A DNA stretch of 35,378 bases from Chloroflexota bacterium (lineage in GTDB: Bacteria; Chloroflexota; Dehalococcoidia; SZUA-161; SpSt-899), in the NCBI GenBank assembly GCA_013203045.1, contig JABMQN010000193.1, forward strand, positions 1-35,378, read 5' to 3'. The notes under the pieces were generated by a model. That model searched no databases and was not told where the DNA came from. It saw only the letters and a program-made list of their open reading frames with translations. The position numbers were made by a program, and so were the translations under genes. Below, one piece after another: positions 12,279 through 30,549 of the stretch (positions within the stretch are counted from its first letter, which is position 1; every line of letters starts with the position of its first letter).

Positions 12279-15200
12279 TCATCGGAATTCCTCAGGTATC
12301 AGGTCTCCTATCTTGGTAGTCGCTGCACTCATTACTGTATCGGCTGAGCCATAATATACGATTATTTCATCTTCGGCATTGAGGGAGAAAATGCGGTCTG
12401 TTAGCGGAAGGGCCCCGCATGTGAAAACGACGTTTGGCACCCAGGAAGTATCGTCTTTCCCAAGTTCCCATAAGGCCTCTGGTTCCAAGATGAAATTGGG
12501 TGAACGGTATTTCAATTTGGAAGGATCGGCCAGATCGAGCAACATGATCCCCAGTCGATAAACATGATCGTAATCAACGCCGTGGGTTATTAATAGCCAA
12601 CCGAATTTCGTTTTGATGGGTTGGGCTCCGGCCCCGATTTTTCTTCCATCCCACATCATTCCGGTAGTTGTTCCTGCCAGTATCTTATGCTCTCTGCGGG
12701 GCCACGGACAGCGAAGGTGGGGCGAGAAGGTTATCCACATGTGAGGATCGACCCTATGAAGCATGGCATGCTTTCCATTAAAAGTTTCAGGGAATAATGT
12801 AGCGTCTTTGTCATCGAATCCGGGAAAAACAAGGCCATGTCTGCGCCAGGCTCGCCAGCGATTTTGGAGGAACTCCTTTACACCGATAGAAGCCAACGCA
12901 ATCTGTGCGACGAGGCCATCGTATGCGGTGTAAGCCATATAAATACGATCGCCGATCAGTGTCAGGCGGGGATCTTCGCACCCCATTTTTTCGCTCGCAT
13001 GATTGGGTGAGAAAATCGGAGTATCCAGTCTTTCAGTGAAATTGAATCCGTCTTCACTGATTGCCATTCCCAGACGGGATACTTCGTCTTCGCCAAAAGC
13101 CCGATACACTAAATGCACTTTTCCATTCAGCCTTATACAAGCTGAGTTGAGAACATACTTTGATTCCCATGAGTGCTCTTTGATGGGTTCAAGAATGGGA
13201 TTGCCATCGAAGCGAATCAGGTTCTTTGCTGGTGGGTATTCGGGCGAGACGATCGTAGACTCCATTGAGACTACTTTCTCGGCGCCTTTCTCTTCTCCCA
13301 ACAGTATCGGGGCCAGGTTTTCAGATTCCCTGCCTTGCTCGATGAGCTCGATAACCTTCTCTTCGACCTCTTCTTCAGTTCCGCCTATTGCCTTGTAATA
13401 CTCGACAAGGAATTCCCTCGATGACCAGTCCCTCTCAACATGCAAAGAAAGCGGCGGAGGCGAAGCCCTGCCTCCTTTGAAGCTGTAGCTTGCCCAAGAC
13501 CAGGCGGAACAAGTTACGAATTTACCATCGGGGAGAGCCAGTGCCAAGTGATAACATTCGGACAGGTCTTTGAGATGTTTGAACCGGGTAAAGCGCTCTC
13601 GATCACCTGTAGCTTCTTCTTTATCGATTCTCTCGACCATCTCTCTGACTCGCTCAACCAGGATACGCTGATGACCATCTTCGAAGATAAAATGAGCTGA
13701 TAGTGGCTCTTTTCCCCAGTGTCCTCTAATCGAGTCCATCACCTTGCGGCCGAAGTCCTTTCTTTCGGCAGCGAATCTTTTCCATAAATTGCCGAATCTC
13801 TCCGCTTCAACGATGTTCTTCCCGATGGTTGTAAGGTATCTTAGTTTGGGAAACTCGCCTCCCATACCTTTGTGAATATTGCTTACAACAATCCTGGAAG
13901 TTAACCTGTCAAGAGCGGACGAATCCTTCAATTCCACCAATGATGGGAAGTCCTCGTGAGTTACTACTAATGGCTTTATTTTTGATGGTGTGAAATGTTC
14001 TGGACGGATATTGTCTGCCAGCAGGTCCCACAGTCCACGGGTGTATTCACGTTCTTCAGACCAGGTGGCCAATGCCATAATATCGAGAGGGTCATAGTCC
14101 TCTAATAGCTGATCAAGGTACGAGTATCCAAGTTTGGTCAAGAGGCTAATAGGGGTATGCTGCGCCAAAAACCTTGATGCCATCTCGGGTATCAAAGAGA
14201 ACCCGTCCCCGTGTGGAAAGTTCTCAATAATGATATTGACCATCTCTTGTGTGCCCTCGACTGTTGTTAAGTCGATGCCTGGTAGTATCTCGCTCTCTAC
14301 TGAATGTAAAAAGTCTTTTATGGCTAGAGAGACTTCCAAAGAGCTGGCGTCTTTTGGGACTTTCAGATGTTCGTATACAAAGTGCTCAAATTCCGCTTTT
14401 TGTTTCATGAAAACAGAATCGTATATGTCATTGGCACGGACTATCTTGCCATCTGGCGTTGTTATTTCTGAAGGAACTATCAGCGGTACACCAGGTATGA
14501 ACTCACGGTAGGTGATCTGTGGGATAGGTGGCATAAGAGCCTCTTCGGAGATTTCCCAACTTGCTACGAACCCCGGTTTTTGACGAAGAAATTCAGTGGT
14601 AATGTCTTCAATTCTACGATCAGCTTCCAGGGATACCAGGTGGTCTCTGTCTTCGGTTGGGAGGTGCTCCAATTTGTCCTTCATTCGTTGCATATCCAGG
14701 GTGAACCCTGCCACCAAGGCATTAAACAGAGGAATAAGGGAATCGAGTAAATCACCCTTGGCAAAGTCTTTGCCGAAAGCATAGGCCAGCAAAAGGTGGT
14801 AGATGATATGAGACCACAGCTCGGGGGAGACGGTAAAATGTTCAATCCTGGTAGAGGCTAGTTCTTCCAATTCCAGATAGGTTTCGTTTGGAAGAACCCT
14901 TTTATAAAGCAAATGGAATTTGTTGAAGCCTTGTACGTATCGTTCTATTGCTTGTTGGGGACTCCTCTCCACTTCGTCCGGTTGATCTATTCTTTTAGCT
15001 CCATAGGTAGGCAATGGACTCAAGAGTGGTAGATCACGGATTTTGTCTATTTCTTCCCACCATCCTCTGTCGTCTACAATTTGAGCAAACAGGGCACTGG
15101 CTGTTTGCCGTAGAACCAACTCACTTTTTGGTATTGATGGTTTGTGGATCTTTATCCCCAGGTTGACTTCGCAAATGGTGGCACTGTTAGTGATGGCTAC

Positions 15201-15956
15201 GTTTGCTAGCCAATTGTCAATTCCATATCCGCCAATATAGCTATTCCATAAATTTCTGGGATATCTGAACTGACTTCGGAGTATCTGGTGAGAGATTCCC
15301 CACTGTCCCCCTATAAGCCGGTGTATGGGACAGTTGTATATAGCTGTAAGCAAAGGATAGGCAACAAAGGTAGAGATAGGGGCCTCGAGGTAATGACGAT
15401 TGAATAGGGAAATGACCATATCCGCTTGACCTGTTCTAATTGGCTCAAGGAGGAGGTAAATCCAGTCTGGGGCTAGTCCTTCAATTCGACCATCTGATTT
15501 GCGGCTTTTCAAGTCAGCTTCCAGAATTACATGATCTGCACCAAGACTCTGAGCTATTTCGATAATGGCTCGTACACCCCAACCTTTCCCGTTAAGTAGT
15601 TCATCATCGAGTAAAAAAGCTATGTGGTCTATCTTCTTGTCGTGGGGGAGATTGTTGATTATCTCGAGTGCGTTACCTCCAGCTACGGATCCAGCAGTTA
15701 CGATGACGGATTTTTGATTTGGATAATACTTTTTCAAGCCTTTTCGTGCTGTGTTTATGACATGTGCTATGGTATCAGTTTCATTATAGAAGGGGATTCC
15801 GATAACGATATCTGCTTCTCTTATGTGTCGTGCTTGCTCTAGGGGCCCCTGCATGATTTGTATATAGCGCTCCTCTATCTTTTCAAAAGGATGTACTTGT
15901 GTTTTTGATTTGTGGTTAATGATGGAAGGCGCGCGATTAGCAGGGGAATTCTTCAT
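12279..15956 (-). CDS. Fusion of GT-A glycosyltransferase and GH130-like domain
   Basis: The protein has 1225 residues and starts at ATG after GAAGGAGACC. Residues about 45-290 form a GT-A nucleotide-sugar transferase. They carry IVIGIPFYNETDTI, GKGWGVRAIIEIA and an EAD motif in place of DxD (VILEADLKSR), then LAPDWIYLLLEPI. This recalls the glucosyl-/mannosyl-glycerate synthase groups. Residues about 300-900 are mostly helical and not recognised. Residues about 912-1225 are a five-bladed GH130 domain, with FDGNPILEP, YRAFGEDEVSRLGMAISEDG, the GCEDPRLT active-site block and the closing VYYGSADTVMSAAT. GH130 enzymes phosphorolyse or hydrolyse beta-mannosides. One polypeptide that could both make and break a glycosidic bond is unusual. 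It follows the GT4 gene in one operon. The substrate is unknown. Confidence 0.88.
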   Translation of the reverse strand: MKNSPANRAPSIINHKSKTQVHPFEKIEERYIQIMQGPLEQARHIREADIVIGIPFYNETDTIAHVINTARKGLKKYYPNQKSVIVTAGSVAGGNALEIINNLPHDKKIDHIAFLLDDELLNGKGWGVRAIIEIAQSLGADHVILEADLKSRKSDGRIEGLAPDWIYLLLEPIRTGQADMVISLFNRHYLEAPISTFVAYPLLTAIYNCPIHRLIGGQWGISHQILRSQFRYPRNLWNSYIGGYGIDNWLANVAITNSATICEVNLGIKIHKPSIPKSELVLRQTASALFAQIVDDRGWWEEIDKIRDLPLLSPLPTYGAKRIDQPDEVERSPQQAIERYVQGFNKFHLLYKRVLPNETYLELEELASTRIEHFTVSPELWSHIIYHLLLAYAFGKDFAKGDLLDSLIPLFNALVAGFTLDMQRMKDKLEHLPTEDRDHLVSLEADRRIEDITTEFLRQKPGFVASWEISEEALMPPIPQITYREFIPGVPLIVPSEITTPDGKIVRANDIYDSVFMKQKAEFEHFVYEHLKVPKDASSLEVSLAIKDFLHSVESEILPGIDLTTVEGTQEMVNIIIENFPHGDGFSLIPEMASRFLAQHTPISLLTKLGYSYLDQLLEDYDPLDIMALATWSEEREYTRGLWDLLADNIRPEHFTPSKIKPLVVTHEDFPSLVELKDSSALDRLTSRIVVSNIHKGMGGEFPKLRYLTTIGKNIVEAERFGNLWKRFAAERKDFGRKVMDSIRGHWGKEPLSAHFIFEDGHQRILVERVREMVERIDKEEATGDRERFTRFKHLKDLSECYHLALALPDGKFVTCSAWSWASYSFKGGRASPPPLSLHVERDWSSREFLVEYYKAIGGTEEEVEEKVIELIEQGRESENLAPILLGEEKGAEKVVSMESTIVSPEYPPAKNLIRFDGNPILEPIKEHSWESKYVLNSACIRLNGKVHLVYRAFGEDEVSRLGMAISEDGFNFTERLDTPIFSPNHASEKMGCEDPRLTLIGDRIYMAYTAYDGLVAQIALASIGVKEFLQNRWRAWRRHGLVFPGFDDKDATLFPETFNGKHAMLHRVDPHMWITFSPHLRCPWPRREHKILAGTTTGMMWDGRKIGAGAQPIKTKFGWLLITHGVDYDHVYRLGIMLLDLADPSKLKYRSPNFILEPEALWELGKDDTSWVPNVVFTCGALPLTDRIFSLNAEDEIIVYYGSADTVMSAATTKIGDLIPEEFR

Positions 15957-21177: not shown

Positions 21178-22335
21178 TTGAAAAAAGAAGTAGCTGTAAT
21201 TGCTGCTGGACAGACACCATTTATCCGAAGTTGCGGCATGTCTATCCGCGAACTCTGCTTCGAAGCGTACAAGGATGCGGCGAAAAGTATCAATATCGAT
21301 CCGAAGGATGTTGATGCGTCGATCATAGCTTCTGCTCCGGAATATGACAAGCAGCGAACTCCAGCGGCCCTCGTATCAGAGTATCTCGGCTTTCCGCCCA
21401 GCCCCACATTCTATTTGGAAACCGTATGTTCTTCCGGAACCACCGGGATTAGAGTAGGATACGCGTTGATCAAATCAGGCCTCCACGATATTGTGGTAAT
21501 GGTTGGGTTCCAGAAAATGTCCGAGTTGGATTCACGTACAGCAGCGCAGGTGATGGGCCGTGGCGACGATACCATATTCAGCTCGCCCTTCGGAACCACT
21601 ATGCCGGGCGGTCACGCGCTATATGCTCAGGCACATATGGATGCCTATGGCACAACTGAGGAACAACTGGCCAAGATACGAGTGAAGAATTCGTTTTATG
21701 GCTCACAGAATGAGCTGGCAAATTACAAGAAACGCCTGGACCTTGAGGCATGTCTGAATGCAGATATGGTTTGCACCCCACTAAAGAAGTTCGATTGTTG
21801 CGCTAACTGTGATGGCGCCTCCGCTGTTATTTTGGCGAGCGCTGATGTTGCCAAAAAATATACCGATAAACCCATATGGATTCAGGGCGTGGGTATGGCG
21901 ACTTCGGAACTCAACTGGAGCAGCCGTGCTTCACTTACCAATTTCGATAGTGTTCGCAATGCAGCAAAAGCGGCATATGAAATGGCGGGTGTAGGTCCTG
22001 AGGATATCAATGTAGCTGAAGTCCATGATTGTTTTACCGTTTCGGAAATTCTGGCTTACGAAGATCTGGGATTTGCCAAAACCGGCGAAGGTGGCAAGCT
22101 TATCGATGAAGAAGCTACGTATCATACCGGTCGCATTCCAGTGAACGTTGATGGCGGGTTACTTTCCAAGGGTCATCCCATTGGCGGCACCGGTGGATCA
22201 CAGGTTCGCACAATTGTGAAACAGCTTCGCGGTGAATGCGGTGAAACGCAGGTCGAAAACGCTAAGATCGGTCTGGTTCATAACGTCGGCGGCGTGGGTA
22301 CCTATGCCAACGTCATCATCTTCGGGAGGGAGTAG
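21178..22335 (+). CDS. Thiolase (SCP-x type acetyl-CoA acyltransferase)
   Basis: The protein has 385 residues and starts at TTG after AGGAGGT. It is a thiolase-fold enzyme that makes or cleaves 3-oxoacyl-CoA. The nucleophile Cys lies in ETVCSSGTTGIRVGYALI. VAEVHDCFTVSEILAYEDLGF gives the mid-domain His, and GHPIGGTGGSQVRTIVKQLRG the C-terminal His/Gly block. This pattern belongs to the SCP-x/thiolase group, which usually needs a small OB-fold partner. That partner is encoded three bases downstream (DUF35 protein). It opens the plus-strand acyl-CoA cluster. A role in fatty acid, branched acid or steroid side-chain degradation is inferred from the family. Confidence 0.92.
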   Translation: MKKEVAVIAAGQTPFIRSCGMSIRELCFEAYKDAAKSINIDPKDVDASIIASAPEYDKQRTPAALVSEYLGFPPSPTFYLETVCSSGTTGIRVGYALIKSGLHDIVVMVGFQKMSELDSRTAAQVMGRGDDTIFSSPFGTTMPGGHALYAQAHMDAYGTTEEQLAKIRVKNSFYGSQNELANYKKRLDLEACLNADMVCTPLKKFDCCANCDGASAVILASADVAKKYTDKPIWIQGVGMATSELNWSSRASLTNFDSVRNAAKAAYEMAGVGPEDINVAEVHDCFTVSEILAYEDLGFAKTGEGGKLIDEEATYHTGRIPVNVDGGLLSKGHPIGGTGGSQVRTIVKQLRGECGETQVENAKIGLVHNVGGVGTYANVIIFGRE

Positions 22336-22338
22336 AAA

Positions 22339-22749
22339 ATGGATTTCGGGAATTTTGGAGTTGTAAATTTCACCAAGGAAGCCAAATCCGTTGCCTTTGT
22401 CGATTATTTGTCTGAAGGCAAACTTATGGGTACTGAGTGTAAGAAGTGTGGCAAGAAGTACTTTCCTCCACGGATGGACTGTGCCAAGTGCTTTGATAGT
22501 GAGGTTGAGTGGTTTGAAATCAAAGGCCCTGGCAAGCTCGTTACTTACACCACGGTAAACTTTGGACCTTCCGGTTTTGAAGAAGTTCAACCCTACACAC
22601 TGGGGATCGTAGATTTTCCTGAAGGTGTGAGGGTATTGGCAAAAATCAGCAAAAAGATCGATCCCACCAGTATTAAGGCTGGTATGGAACTCAGGCCGGT
22701 ACCCCAGCAGTTGAGTGAAGAGAAGCTTACCTATGAGTTTGAGAATTAA
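22339..22749 (+). CDS. Zn-ribbon OB-fold (DUF35) thiolase partner
   Basis: The protein has 136 residues and starts at ATG shortly after GGGAGGGAG. An N-terminal helix is followed by a zinc ribbon (TECKKCGKKYFPPRMDCAKC, two CxxC pairs) and an OB-fold ('GKLVTYTTVNFGP ... YTLGIVDFPEGVRVLAKI'). DUF35 proteins sit beside SCP-x-type thiolases and HMG-CoA synthases and hold the enzyme complex together, or bind the CoA substrate. The 3-base gap from the thiolase gene implies one transcript and probably one complex. Confidence 0.93.
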   Translation: MDFGNFGVVNFTKEAKSVAFVDYLSEGKLMGTECKKCGKKYFPPRMDCAKCFDSEVEWFEIKGPGKLVTYTTVNFGPSGFEEVQPYTLGIVDFPEGVRVLAKISKKIDPTSIKAGMELRPVPQQLSEEKLTYEFEN

Positions 22750-22790
22750 GGCGTTGAATGTGCTTGGGGTTTGGTTGAAGTAGTTGAAGG

Positions 22791-22820
22791 AGGCGCCCTG
22801 CAGAAAGTTGCGGGGCGCCT
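22791..22820 (+). terminator. GC-rich hairpin after the OB-fold gene
   Basis: AGGCGCCC and GGGCGCCT form a perfect 8-bp stem around a 14-base loop, followed by TATTGTG. The T-run is weak. It probably ends the thiolase/OB-fold transcript, since a strong promoter starts 31 bases later. Confidence 0.6.
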
Positions 22821-22850
22821 TATTGTGTAGCGGTATCCTTGGTGTCTGTA

Positions 22851-22880
22851 TTGACTGTCGAGAACGGCTTATATTATAAT
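22851..22880 (+). promoter_or_regulatory. Sigma-70-type promoter of the dehydrogenase/CoA-transferase unit
   Basis: TTGACT (22851-22856) and TATAAT (22875-22880) are 18 bases apart. Transcription would begin near 22887, ahead of the GAAGG ribosome site for the next gene. Confidence 0.75.
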
Positions 22881-22920
22881 GAGCATGGGAAATTGTATTT
22901 AGAAAAGAAGGTTGTGGCAC

Positions 22921-23781
22921 TTGGAAGCAAATAAGGTTTTTGTAGTCAGTTCTATTCAAACAATCGAAGTTGCCAGTGCCATTTCCCAAGTAGCAGCCTG
23001 TGCTGGTTGCTCTGTAGTGATAAAGTGTGATGATCAGGCGTCTTGCGAGAAGGCAATTTCGGAAGCAAAAAAACTGTTGGATGGCAGGGTTGCCACAGAC
23101 GAACTCACCGCAGGGCAAGTTGAAGCGGCAATAGGGCGCATCCAGACAACCATTGAGCTTGGTGACGCCAAGCATGCGGATATAATCATTGAAACTGTCT
23201 TTGAGGACGAAGGCCTGAAGAGAAAAACACTGAGTGCCCTCGATGAAATTTGTGCATCTGATGTCATTCTCGCTACTAATACTTCCACCATTACAGTTAC
23301 AAGCCTTGCCAATGCTACCAACCGTCCTGAACAGGTCATCGGTATGCATTTCATCTATTTTTCAACAGTCATGAAGGTGATGGAAATCGTTCGTGGGGTA
23401 CAGACTTCAGATGCAACGTTCAATGCAGTTGAGGCGCTAGCTGCAAAATTCAAAATGGAAGTATCTATTTCAGAAGATGTGCCTGGCCTCTTGAGCACGA
23501 GGATTTGGATGGTACATCTGAACGAAGCGTCTAACAATGTATTCAACAAACTGGTTGAACCGGAGGCTTTAAGGAAACTCAATCGAACCATTTCTCCGAA
23601 TGCCCTGAGTATCCTCGAGTCTGCTGATTTTATAGGGCTGGATAATTGCGTTGCCTTATTACAAAATTTAAATTCTGCCTATAATGATCCCAAATACTCC
23701 CCTTCACCGCTTCTGACTCGGATGGTTGATGCTGGACAACTGGGCGTAAGAACCGGTGGTGGGTTTTTTAAATATATATAA
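22921..23781 (+). CDS. Atypical 3-hydroxyacyl-CoA dehydrogenase paralogue without the NAD loop
   Basis: The track starts at TTG 22912, but TTG 22921 sits nine bases after GAAGG and is preferred, giving about 286 residues. The C-terminal two thirds follow the family: ATNTSTITVTSLA, IGMHFIYFSTVMKVMEIV and the end LTRMVDAGQLGVRTGGGFFKY. The catalytic His (about 143) and Glu (about 155) are kept. The N-terminal GxGxxG dinucleotide loop is replaced by VVSSIQTIEV, with no glycine. The Asn of the usual DxPGFxxNR block is replaced (EDVPGLLSTR). NAD binding is therefore doubtful. A partner subunit to the second dehydrogenase, or an enzyme with another job, is inferred. It leads the unit made from the 22851-22880 promoter. 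Confidence 0.85.
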   Translation: MEANKVFVVSSIQTIEVASAISQVAACAGCSVVIKCDDQASCEKAISEAKKLLDGRVATDELTAGQVEAAIGRIQTTIELGDAKHADIIIETVFEDEGLKRKTLSALDEICASDVILATNTSTITVTSLANATNRPEQVIGMHFIYFSTVMKVMEIVRGVQTSDATFNAVEALAAKFKMEVSISEDVPGLLSTRIWMVHLNEASNNVFNKLVEPEALRKLNRTISPNALSILESADFIGLDNCVALLQNLNSAYNDPKYSPSPLLTRMVDAGQLGVRTGGGFFKYI

Positions 23782-23802
23782 GTATTTCAGGAGGAAAGAC
23801 AC

Positions 23803-24612
23803 GTGGCTGTAAACAAGCAAATGACAGTGGACCAAGTGGTAAAACAGATAAAGAATGGTGACACTATTGTCATCGGGGGATGGGGACTGGTACGCAAACC
23901 CATGGGAATTGTCAGAGCAATTGCCCAGTCAAATCTGAAAGACCTGACCATTATAGCGCTCGCTGGTATGGATTTAGACATGCTGGTTGCAGCAGGGAAG
24001 GTCAAGAAGGCTATCACTGGCTTCGTTGCATTCGAAGGCGGGGAAGGTAGAGCGGTAGCGTACGATAATGCCAGAAAGAATGGGAAGATCGAGTACATGG
24101 AGCTTTCGGAGTATATGCTCATCGCAGGTCTTAAAGCTGCGTCAGAAAGAATTCCTTTCTATCCCACTCGCTCAGGATTGGGCACTGATATTCTCGCGGC
24201 AAATCCTGAAATCAAGACATTCAAGGCTCCATATACTGGTGAGAAGCTGGTAGCTATGCCGGCGCTTCGTGCCGATGTTGCTTTGATTCATGCCAATAAG
24301 GCCAGTCAGGAAGGGTATGCGACCATTGATGGTGATCGGCTTTGGGATCATATCATGATTAGAGCTGCTGACAAAGTATTTGTGAGTGCTGAGGAGATCG
24401 TTCCTCGATATGAGCTTCAGAAAGAAATGGACAAAATAAAAGTCCTTACACCATGGGTTACCGGTGTCGTGGAAATGCCCAACGGTGCGCGACCGGGTAC
24501 TCTTTTCCCGAACTATCTTGATGCGGGCAACAGAACAATCAAAGCATATATGGATGCAGCTCTTGATCCAAAGACTTTTAAGAAGTATTTAGCAGAGCAA
24601 ACCAGCAAATAA
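23803..24612 (+). CDS. CoA-transferase-like subunit A (family I, IpdA/GctA-like)
   Basis: The protein has 269 residues and starts at GTG after AGGAGGAAAG. The fold pattern is family I CoA-transferase alpha: DTIVIGGWGLVRKPMGIVRAI, then RSGLGTDILAANPEIKTFKAPY, ADVALIHANKASQEGYATIDG and VFVSAEEIVPRYELQ. Family members move CoA between carboxylic acids. The related IpdAB proteins instead open a steroid-derived ring CoA ester by hydrolysis. The gene is followed by the beta-like subunit and lies within an acyl-CoA degradation cluster. Choice between transferase and hydrolase cannot be made from this subunit alone. Confidence 0.85.
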   Translation: MAVNKQMTVDQVVKQIKNGDTIVIGGWGLVRKPMGIVRAIAQSNLKDLTIIALAGMDLDMLVAAGKVKKAITGFVAFEGGEGRAVAYDNARKNGKIEYMELSEYMLIAGLKAASERIPFYPTRSGLGTDILAANPEIKTFKAPYTGEKLVAMPALRADVALIHANKASQEGYATIDGDRLWDHIMIRAADKVFVSAEEIVPRYELQKEMDKIKVLTPWVTGVVEMPNGARPGTLFPNYLDAGNRTIKAYMDAALDPKTFKKYLAEQTSK

Positions 24613-24648
24613 GACGAGTTTTCGGATAATTTAATTATCGAGCTCGTC
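24613..24648 (+). other. Intra-operon hairpin between CoA-transferase subunits
   Basis: GACGAG and CTCGTC enclose a second pairing region, TCGGATAAT with ATTATCGA, giving a long stem just after the subunit A stop codon. No T-run follows. It may protect the upstream mRNA end or mark a processing site, changing the ratio of the two subunits. Confidence 0.5.
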
Positions 24649-24706
24649 GGGAGATAAGGAAAAAACGACAAGCACTCGTTATTAAAAACGAAACGGAGGA
24701 TGGATA

Positions 24707-25657
24707 GTGGCAAAAGCAACCAAAGGCAAAACGGCAACCAAAAAAACAACTAAAGCAGCAACGAAGGCAACTCCCAAGAAGTCGAGCAAGTCTGAGCTTG
24801 CGACTGGTTATACGATAGAAGAGCAGATGTGTGTTGCACTGGCGCGCGAATTTGGCCCTAATGACAGAATCGCGTTGTCTGGAGTCTTGAATTGGACATT
24901 TGTAGCTGAGGCATTAGCCCAGAAGATGAATGCACCACAGATTCCCTGTCACCATGATTACTCGCGGCTTGGTGGAAATGGGTGCTTGACTGAAGGCCCA
25001 CGGTTTCCCTTTCAAGTAGGTAATCCACCTGAGGAATATCCCTCTGCCCAAGTTACCAGTGAAGATATTTTTGCCCTAGTGCTTGGGGGTAAATGGAATA
25101 TCATGATGCAGCCCCTACAAGTAGACAAACAAGGGAACGCAAACCTTGCTCTTATAGGAAATCCGAAGAAGCCGGACAGATATTTTGTGGGTTCCCGAGG
25201 ATTGCCCGATAATTCGACAAATAGCGGTAAAACCTACTTTACTCTGCCTACCCACTTGAAGAGGAACTTCCCTGAGAAGGTAGATTTTAGATCTTCTGCC
25301 GGTTGGGGCCCTGAGAGGAAAGCCGGAGATATTCCATATGGTGCTATCGAAAAGGTGTTCACCCCATTGTGTATTTTCGATATTGATCCAAAGACCAAAC
25401 AGATGAGGCTGGCATCGGTTCATAAAGGTGTAACGGTTAATCAAGTGCTCAAAAACACTGGCTTTAAGCCGATCGTCCCTAAAAACGTTCCCCAGACATG
25501 CGTTCCGACCAAAGAAGAACTTCGCTTGCTTCGTGAAGTTATTGATGGTGCAGCAATCCGAAGGCTGGATCACGGTACCGCTGAAGAGAAGAAAGCGGTC
25601 TTTGATCAGATTAGCGACGGAACTAAATTCACGCAGATTTATCCTGACAGAAAGTAA
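24707..25657 (+). CDS. CoA-transferase-like subunit B with Lys/Ala/Thr-rich N-tail
   Basis: The protein has 316 residues and starts at GTG after GGAGGATG. The first 30 residues are a highly basic low-complexity tail of K, A and T (for example KGKTATKKTTKAATKATPKK). The remainder resembles family I CoA-transferase beta (IpdB/GctB-like), with MMQPLQVDKQGNANLALIGN and a C-terminal 'TKEELRLLREVIDG'. In family I transferases a catalytic Glu lies in an E-S/N-G motif after the first strands. Here that region reads CHHDYSRLGGNG and has no such Glu. This favours an IpdAB-like lyase/hydrolase or a new reaction over a plain transferase. It pairs with subunit A upstream. Confidence 0.8.
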   Translation: MAKATKGKTATKKTTKAATKATPKKSSKSELATGYTIEEQMCVALAREFGPNDRIALSGVLNWTFVAEALAQKMNAPQIPCHHDYSRLGGNGCLTEGPRFPFQVGNPPEEYPSAQVTSEDIFALVLGGKWNIMMQPLQVDKQGNANLALIGNPKKPDRYFVGSRGLPDNSTNSGKTYFTLPTHLKRNFPEKVDFRSSAGWGPERKAGDIPYGAIEKVFTPLCIFDIDPKTKQMRLASVHKGVTVNQVLKNTGFKPIVPKNVPQTCVPTKEELRLLREVIDGAAIRRLDHGTAEEKKAVFDQISDGTKFTQIYPDRK

Positions 25658-25679
25658 TCAGCTAGTAAGTTATTAAGTG

Positions 25680-25717
25680 TGCCCCCTGTGTTTTGTGTGT
25701 GCACAAGGCAGGGGGCA
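25680..25717 (+). terminator. Hairpin before the second dehydrogenase gene
   Basis: TGCCCCCTG and CAGGGGGCA form a perfect 9-bp stem with a 20-base loop. The bases after it (tagcgtaag) are not T-rich, so termination would be weak or depend on Rho. It could also act as a processing signal. Confidence 0.5.
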
Positions 25718-25755
25718 TAGCGTAAGTTCTATTTGGAATGATTGTTGGGAAATTT

Positions 25756-26610
25756 ATGGACGTCAAAAATATATTTGTAATCGGTGGCGGTGGATTGATG
25801 GGTAGTGGTATTGTGCAATGCTGCATTGAGTATGGGTTTAACACCACAGCTAACGATATAAAAGAAGAGTTCGTGCAACGGGGTGTCAACGGAATCACGC
25901 AACGGATGGAAGGAAAGGTTGCCAAAGGGAAAATCACGGAGGACAAGAAGAACGAAATCCTTGGTAATCTGAGAACGTCGACGGATTTAGCAGACGCCAA
26001 AGACGCTGATATAGTCATTGAAGTCATCTTTGAAGATCTCGGATTGAAAAAGGATGTCTTTTCCAGACTTGATGAAATTTGTCCTCAGCATACGATATTT
26101 GCTTCCAATTCATCTTCGCTTCCCATTACGGAAATGGCTGGATTCACCAAGCGCCCGGATAGGTTTATGGGCATGCATTTTCTCCAGCCGGTTCCAGTTA
26201 TGCCACTGGTCAATGGTATCATGGGGCTTTTAACTTCAGATGAGACATGTGCAGTTATTGAGAAGTTAGCAAAGGATATTGGTAAAGAGGTTGTTCATTG
26301 GAAAGATGGCCCTGGACATGGCCTGCAACTCTCGCCAATGGCTTACTACAACGAAGCTGCCAAGGTTTTATCGGAAGAGAGGGGTACCAGAGAGGATATC
26401 GACAAGTGTTTTAAAGTGGGACTAGGTATGCCCATGGGGCCTATAACTACACTTGATTTCATGGGAATGGATACTGTGCTGCATATTTTGCACATTTTAC
26501 ATGAAGCTTACGGTGGTTCGCAATACCATCCTTCCAATTTGATTGTTCAAATGGTCAAGGCCGGATTATATGGGAACAAGGCAGGCAGAGGCTTTTATAC
26601 CTATAAATAG
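25756..26610 (+). CDS. 3-hydroxyacyl-CoA dehydrogenase-like protein lacking the catalytic Glu
   Basis: The preferred start is ATG 25756 (MDVKNIFVIGGGG); the track uses ATG 25738. The protein has about 284 residues. The NAD loop VIGGGGLMGSGI is intact at residues 8-19 and ASNSSSLPITEMA matches the substrate serine region. The active-site block reads GMHFLQPVPVMPLVNG. His is kept (about 141), but the Glu of the normal HFFNPVPVMKLVE is Asn (about 153), and the first Asn is Gln. The later NR motif is LQL. Oxidation of ordinary 3-hydroxyacyl-CoA by the classical His-Glu dyad is therefore uncertain. The end, VKAGLYGNKAGRGFYTYK, is typical. It closes the acyl-CoA cluster, 70 bp before gyrB. Confidence 0.87.
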   Translation: MDVKNIFVIGGGGLMGSGIVQCCIEYGFNTTANDIKEEFVQRGVNGITQRMEGKVAKGKITEDKKNEILGNLRTSTDLADAKDADIVIEVIFEDLGLKKDVFSRLDEICPQHTIFASNSSSLPITEMAGFTKRPDRFMGMHFLQPVPVMPLVNGIMGLLTSDETCAVIEKLAKDIGKEVVHWKDGPGHGLQLSPMAYYNEAAKVLSEERGTREDIDKCFKVGLGMPMGPITTLDFMGMDTVLHILHILHEAYGGSQYHPSNLIVQMVKAGLYGNKAGRGFYTYK

Positions 26611-29445: not shown

Positions 29446-30549
29446 CTACTCGCCTAAATAGGCCTTGATAACTGCCGGGTCACGTTTCACTTCATCGGGA
29501 ACACCCTCTGCGATCGTCCGCCCGAAGTCAAGTACCACAAGCCTATCGGTAATGTCCATAACCACACCCATATCATGCTCGATGAGCACGATAGCCATCC
29601 CGGTTTCTTCCTGTACGTCCAAAATGAATCTGGCCATGTCCTCTTTTTCGTCAACGTTCATCCCTGCCATCGGTTCATCAAGTAGTAGTAGTTTGGGCTT
29701 TTGAGTCAAGGCTCTTCCCAGGTCGATTCTCTTCCGCAATCCGTATGGTAAAGCTCCAACCGTTGTCTTTCTATAAGGCTGTATTTCCAGGAATTCTATT
29801 GTTTCCTCTACCGCTTGACGATGTTTGATCTCCTCGTGATGTGACCGGCCGAAGTAAAGTGCGTCTTCAACAAAGTTTGATTTGAAATGGAGATGCCTGG
29901 CAGCCATCAGGTTGTCAACGGTACTCAGTCCGGTATATAGCTGAATATTCTGGAATGTTCTGCCTATACCAAGCCGGGCAATTTGATCCGGAGGGATTGG
30001 TGACTCCAGGTGGCGTAAAACCAGCATGAAAATAATCAAGCCGGGAAGACATAGAGCTATGACGGCTAAGACAAAATAGATGCTGAAGGAACCACCAGTA
30101 AGTAAGTAAAAAATTCCAGAGATAAGACCGCTTGTTAGAATGGCTCCGAAGTACGAACTTGCCCGCGCCCAACCAGATAATTTCTTGGTAGGTGGAGTTC
30201 CGGGTATCCACGCCGATGTCTTAAAAACGGAGTGTAATAATCCAATAAGGAAGAGAACATAAAGAGGACCGCAAAATATAAAAGATAATGTTAAAACAAA
30301 CATCAAACCCTTAAGAGAGAGCTGCTTATCAGGTTTTCTAAGCCGTTGTCCCTCGAAAGTGATTTCTCCCATCTCAGGGTTGTAGAAACCGTTAATGCAG
30401 TTGAGCATGGATGTTTTACCTGCGCCGTTGGGTCCGATAATTGAAAGGATTTCCCCTTCTCTAACATCGAAGCTCACGCCAGCAAGAGCTGTAACACCGC
30501 CAAAGGTTAGGTTAATGTCCTTGACTTCTAATAGCTTGGGCCTTTCCAT
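29446..30549 (-). CDS. livG: LivG-type ABC ATPase with a transmembrane insertion
   Basis: The protein has 367 residues, about 110 more than usual LivG. Walker A IIGPNGAGKTS lies at residues 37-47. The strand GEITFEGQRL is followed not by the usual short 'P..IARLGI' link but by residues about 72-183, which are strongly hydrophobic. Segments near 80-105, 131-150 and 156-178 look like membrane helices. The ABC fold resumes at PPDQIARLGIGRTFQNIQLY (Q-loop Gln about 200), then the LivG-type signature LPYGLRKRIDLGRAL, Walker B LLLLDEPMAGMN and IEHDM. All ATPase motifs are intact, so this is not decay. The insertion could tether the ATPase to the membrane. It is cotranscribed with livF. Confidence 0.92.
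   Translation of the reverse strand: MERPKLLEVKDINLTFGGVTALAGVSFDVREGEILSIIGPNGAGKTSMLNCINGFYNPEMGEITFEGQRLRKPDKQLSLKGLMFVLTLSFIFCGPLYVLFLIGLLHSVFKTSAWIPGTPPTKKLSGWARASSYFGAILTSGLISGIFYLLTGGSFSIYFVLAVIALCLPGLIIFMLVLRHLESPIPPDQIARLGIGRTFQNIQLYTGLSTVDNLMAARHLHFKSNFVEDALYFGRSHHEEIKHRQAVEETIEFLEIQPYRKTTVGALPYGLRKRIDLGRALTQKPKLLLLDEPMAGMNVDEKEDMARFILDVQEETGMAIVLIEHDMGVVMDITDRLVVLDFGRTIAEGVPDEVKRDPAVIKAYLGE

Follow-up and report, generated by a model that had tools for sequence, protein, structure and literature searches.

The window analysed here is a 35,378-nucleotide stretch of contig JABMQN010000193.1 from a Chloroflexota bacterium. Six same-strand genes lie at 21178-26610, followed by gyrB:

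21178..22335, plus strand: SCP2/BbsB-type thiolase, 385 aa (Thiolase_C_1, 1e-46; AGGAGG upstream)
22339..22749, plus strand: Zn-ribbon/OB-fold thiolase partner of the ChsH2/BbsA type (PF12172 and PF01796)
22921..23781, plus strand: HAD1, 3HCDH family, predicted pseudo-subunit without the NAD loop (S137, H158 and E170 present; N161Y, N208T)
23803..24612, plus strand: CTA, IpdA-like subunit with Glu105 of IpdA (6co6_A, 3e-47; 6coj aligned)
24707..25657, plus strand: CTB, IpdB-like subunit without the class I CoA-transferase catalytic Glu (6co6_B, 1e-21; 6con_B alignment)
25756..26610, plus strand: HAD2, 3HCDH family with NAD loop and His158 (E170N, N161Q, N208Q)

The Zn-ribbon/OB gene starts 3 bases past the thiolase gene and HAD1 ends 21 bases ahead of CTA; the reading frames of HAD1 and HAD2 are both intact and sit within this series of same-strand genes separated by short gaps. 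The longest open reading frames extend to a TTG at 22912 (HAD1) and an ATG at 25738 (HAD2), to which the starts proposed in the first-pass annotation, 22921 and 25756, are plausible alternatives. As that annotation had also described, HAD1 and HAD2 flank the two CoA-transferase-like genes; the thiolase and its Zn/OB partner lie upstream. The thiolase resembles BbsB weakly, with a score far under the NCBIfam equivalog cut-off, and neither of the NCBIfam cut-offs for BbsA and BbsB is reached by the cluster's thiolase and Zn/OB proteins.

Two other genes in the window, both on the minus strand, were recorded in their own right. The first (29446-30549) encodes a LivG-like ABC ATPase (367 aa) whose ATPase domain is divided into two ABC_tran stretches by a segment of roughly 110 residues that apparently spans the membrane. 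The second (12279-15956) encodes a protein of 1225 aa that ends in a glycoside hydrolase 130 phosphorylase domain; its first about 900 residues gave no Pfam family match.

HAD1 and HAD2 both exceed the Pfam cut-offs for the 3HCDH_N and 3HCDH domains, and the closest PDB relative of each is the Thermus 3-hydroxybutyryl-CoA dehydrogenase 9fbd. Both proteins were mapped onto human HAD, whose residue numbering is used throughout. At the site where the family has VxGxGxMGxGI, HAD1 carries FVVSSIQTIEVASAI and the glycine loop is wholly absent. The ribose-binding acid is replaced (D45 to Cys), as are the CoA-site lysine (K68 to Thr), N161 (Tyr) and N208 (Thr); P162 has also gone, and with K68, N161 and N208 it belongs to the substrate shell. 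S137, H158 and E170 are retained. The NAD loop of HAD2 is FVIGGGGLMGSGI, so that a GxGxxG pattern missing from HAD1 is found in HAD2 with one glycine beyond the usual. HAD2 further retains D45, K68, S137 and H158 and carries the substitutions N161 to Gln, E170 to Asn, N208 to Gln and R209 to Leu; the His158-Glu170 pair is present in HAD1, and HAD2 has Asn for the Glu.

Alignment to human HAD and to 39 ordinary homologues bears out the original observation that the two paralogues have complementary losses: HAD1 has lost the NAD loop and kept the catalytic His and Glu, HAD2 has kept the loop and the His with Asn in place of the catalytic Glu, and both lack the usual Asn (N208), where HAD1 has Thr and HAD2 Gln. 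All 39 homologues have H158 and E170, and conservation of the loop glycines is 97%; Thr or Ser at position 208 is also seen in otherwise intact HADs. HAD1 keeps 38 of the 61 conserved columns (62%) and HAD2 51 (84%), against 95% for the median homologue. The losses are real and not due to chance. With the Thermus (9fbd), Clostridium (4kue/6aa8) and human (1f0y) enzymes HAD1 and HAD2 share the fold, both Pfam domains, His158 and Ser137; they differ from them in that HAD1 has no NAD site, HAD2 no Glu170, and neither has Asn161 or Asn208.

The AlphaFold model of HAD1 comprises the full fold (mean pLDDT 93.7), and its top Foldseek matches in the PDB are HAD structures with TM about 0.9. Helix A of this model starts with residue 15, just two residues past strand 1, and the phosphate-binding turn is missing; the HAD2 model (mean pLDDT 93.9) has four residues between strand and helix. 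The PDB titles among the HAD1 matches include E170Q, N208S, S137A/C and E110Q, all human HAD mutants made by others. The E170Q mutant is reportedly strongly impaired.

Genes in decay, or sequence errors that imitate losses, could produce such a picture, and here there is a single draft genome with no orthologue for comparison. We consider this explanation improbable. Neither gene contains a stop, the predicted folds of both proteins are of high confidence, and the changes are numerous and fall on functional shells; codon usage also matches the neighbours, though the measure discriminates poorly here. Reading of the other two forward frames, which contain stops and no glycine loop, ruled out a frameshift in HAD1 or a loop concealed there; no forward frame restores it. 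The terminal branch of HAD1 is about 2 changes per site long, yet the gene has acquired no stop or frameshift.

No orthologue of HAD1 above 39% identity was found among 60 relatives, 386 genomes of the class and a scan of genome contigs. HAD2 likewise had no orthologue in the genomes searched, where its best relatives, at 43-46%, have Glu170 wherever residues were tabulated. Three genomes (G137, G041 and G043) have relatives of CTA and CTB (41-53%) and, over the stretches that were read, no HAD gene; the two CoA-transferase-like subunits therefore need not be accompanied by the two HADs. In the tree HAD1 and HAD2 are both long branches, and a topology making them sister duplicates is neither shown nor rejected (AU p 0.57).

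The two proteins might act independently: HAD2 would be a homodimeric dehydrogenase that is slow or specialised, and HAD1 an unrelated leftover or regulatory protein. The tree does not force their sisterhood, and HAD2 retains the loop, the His and 51/61 conserved columns; on the other side stand the invariance of Glu170 in the ordinary homologues, the frame of HAD1, open across a very long branch, and its position 21 bases before CTA. We regard independence as possible but unlikely. A further proposal, which we find quite doubtful, is that HAD1 is a non-redox enzyme whose Ser-His-Glu triad performs hydration, hydrolysis or retro-aldol cleavage on a CoA ester without NAD, HAD2 having a different and separate function. 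S137, H158 and E170 do survive amid many other losses, and the adjoining CTA and CTB are themselves related to a transferase fold repurposed as a hydrolase. However, the substrate-shell residues K68, N161, N208 and P162 have been lost as well, and we know of no HAD-fold enzyme that works without NAD.

The first-pass annotation had proposed instead that the two proteins may form a heteromer sharing one competent site, or may catalyse something other than normal dehydrogenation. A shared site would be a hybrid of the Glu of HAD1 and the NAD loop of HAD2. In human HAD His158 receives a proton and is held in place by Glu170, both residues lying in the NAD-binding domain. Across the fold, loop, His158 and Glu170 share this one domain, each chain completes the site with its own dimerisation domain, and dimers meet through the C-terminal domains (PMC10988713, PMC11476959). 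Because loop, His and Glu belong to one domain of one chain and the chains meet through their C-terminal domains, the Glu of HAD1 cannot ordinarily serve the His of HAD2. The losses are complementary at the level of sequence, but a hybrid site would require domain swapping and Asn208 would still be missing from both proteins, making complementation in trans highly improbable. A heteromer remains a plausible part of the proposal; site-sharing is the part left unsupported. A pseudo-subunit paired with an altered catalytic subunit fits better than shared-site complementation.

A second, independent family bears on whether this fold can accommodate such pairs. Its first degenerate member was met in G052:C46 (L090) during the scan of neighbours and, used as a query in a class search over 373 genomes, it led to six more genomes (L128-L133). 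The short pseudo-HADs are therefore found in seven genomes of three families (G052, G184, G222, G279, G295, G310 and G329). They are about 245-267 aa long, with the NAD loop degraded, the region around K68 absent and Glu170 changed to Gln in 7/7; His158 is replaced by Asn in six of them. In every genome an intact HAD lies beside the pseudo-HAD on the same strand; in 4/7 they are separated by one gene of about 261 aa, and the two of these intervening genes that were scanned are enoyl-CoA hydratases. Among 42 chosen genomes, those with a member of the partner clade, defined by at least 60% identity to the G222 partner (next match 48%), are precisely the seven that have a pseudo-HAD. Distances within the two are strongly correlated (Mantel r 0.94, exact p 0.0004), a figure to which shared species history contributes. 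Of the invariant pseudo-HAD columns, 39/54 lie in the C-terminal dimerisation domain. For the closest pairs dN is about 0.2 against a dS of about 1.5-1.9, and the pseudo-HADs are under purifying selection. Because a pseudo-HAD stands beside an intact HAD in 7/7, under purifying selection, with a congruent tree and with the dimerisation domain best kept, such gene pairings are conserved in evolution, and pseudo-subunit pairs in the 3HCDH fold are probably real.

Like HAD1 and HAD2, these sets comprise a degenerate HAD and a second HAD encoded next to it in the same orientation. They differ in that the pseudo-HADs make up a separate clade of shorter proteins, with 99% support, and their partner is fully intact, unlike HAD2; HAD1 falls outside the clade, is of full length and keeps E170. 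HAD1 and HAD2 are a separate and more extreme instance.

We give a probability of roughly one half to the reading that HAD1 and HAD2 form a heteromeric NAD-dependent hydroxyacyl-CoA dehydrogenase in which HAD1 is the cofactor-dead partner subunit of HAD2. It would fit a HAD1 that has no NAD loop, ribose acid or CoA-site lysine, yet has a full predicted fold and an open frame. Several features of the sequences appear to argue against it. The C-terminal domain of HAD1 is not specially conserved, unlike that of the pseudo-HAD clade, its median identity (0.31) being no better than that of the N-terminal domain (0.33); S137, H158 and E170, which HAD1 retains, should be dispensable for a purely structural subunit; the catalytic shell of HAD2 is damaged too, which would leave no clearly competent subunit; and the dimerisation helix of HAD2 is unusual, agreeing with the family at 3/14 interface positions. 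A more speculative variant, to which we attach little weight, is that HAD1, with Ser-His-Glu and NAD given up, and HAD2, with NAD and the Glu given up, make a heteromer performing a reaction or division of labour undescribed for the fold.

The neighbouring genes suggest what such a dehydrogenase may act upon. CTA aligns with IpdA along its length and has Glu105, where 6coj carries Ala; CTB, in an alignment with 6con_B read by hand, has no transferase Glu and carries a Tyr near IpdB Gly57. IpdAB itself is reported to be without the transferase glutamate, not to transfer CoA and to hydrolyse a steroid ring (PMC5380842). Because CTA keeps the alpha-subunit Glu105 and the pair lacks the transferase beta-subunit Glu, CTA and CTB are predicted to form an IpdAB-like hydrolase and not a CoA-transferase; their similarity to IpdAB is modest and CTB has an N-terminal extension. 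Elsewhere in the window no steroid genes were recognised. The thiolase and Zn/OB subunit would complete a ring-opening beta-oxidation set. Genome-wide there are 19 matches of the 2-hydroxyacyl-CoA dehydratase/benzoyl-CoA reductase-like type and 23 of the crotonase type, and ring or aromatic CoA chemistry in this genome is therefore plausible. On another contig of this genome (G000:C243:1-5845, L066) an intact HAD is clustered with two thiolases and two OB-type proteins.

Under the proposed heteromer, HAD1 would be a cofactor-dead pseudo-subunit pairing through its C-terminal domain, and HAD2 the NAD-binding subunit, which would rely on its own His158 with the customary Glu170/Asn208 shell missing; its substrate would be a particular CoA ester, cyclic or bulky. 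Judging from gene context, the IpdAB-like hydrolase could then open the ring of the oxo product, and the thiolase/OB pair could cleave the chain.

A parallel in principle is BbsCD of anaerobic toluene degradation, for which the title cited as reference 26 in PMC10818641 names inactive pseudoenzyme subunits. There a heteromeric hydroxyacyl-CoA dehydrogenase with a pseudo-subunit acts just before a thiolase/Zn-finger step (BbsAB), and a thiolase and a Zn/OB protein are likewise encoded in the window. BbsC and BbsD, however, are short-chain dehydrogenases (SDR), whereas HAD1 and HAD2 are of the 3HCDH family, and no BbsE, F, G or H was identified among the window proteins scanned. A literature search that lay mostly outside the subscription journals found no paper joining 'pseudoenzyme' with 'hydroxyacyl-CoA dehydrogenase'.

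Few NAD enzymes have been studied as well as those of the 3HCDH fold, whose members are automatically annotated as active dehydrogenases. If the pseudo-subunit partners are real, in the seven genomes and, more radically, in the pair of the window, some 'paralogue' annotations would hide heteromers, and the part played by a dead subunit in a beta-oxidation enzyme could be explored alongside that in BbsCD.
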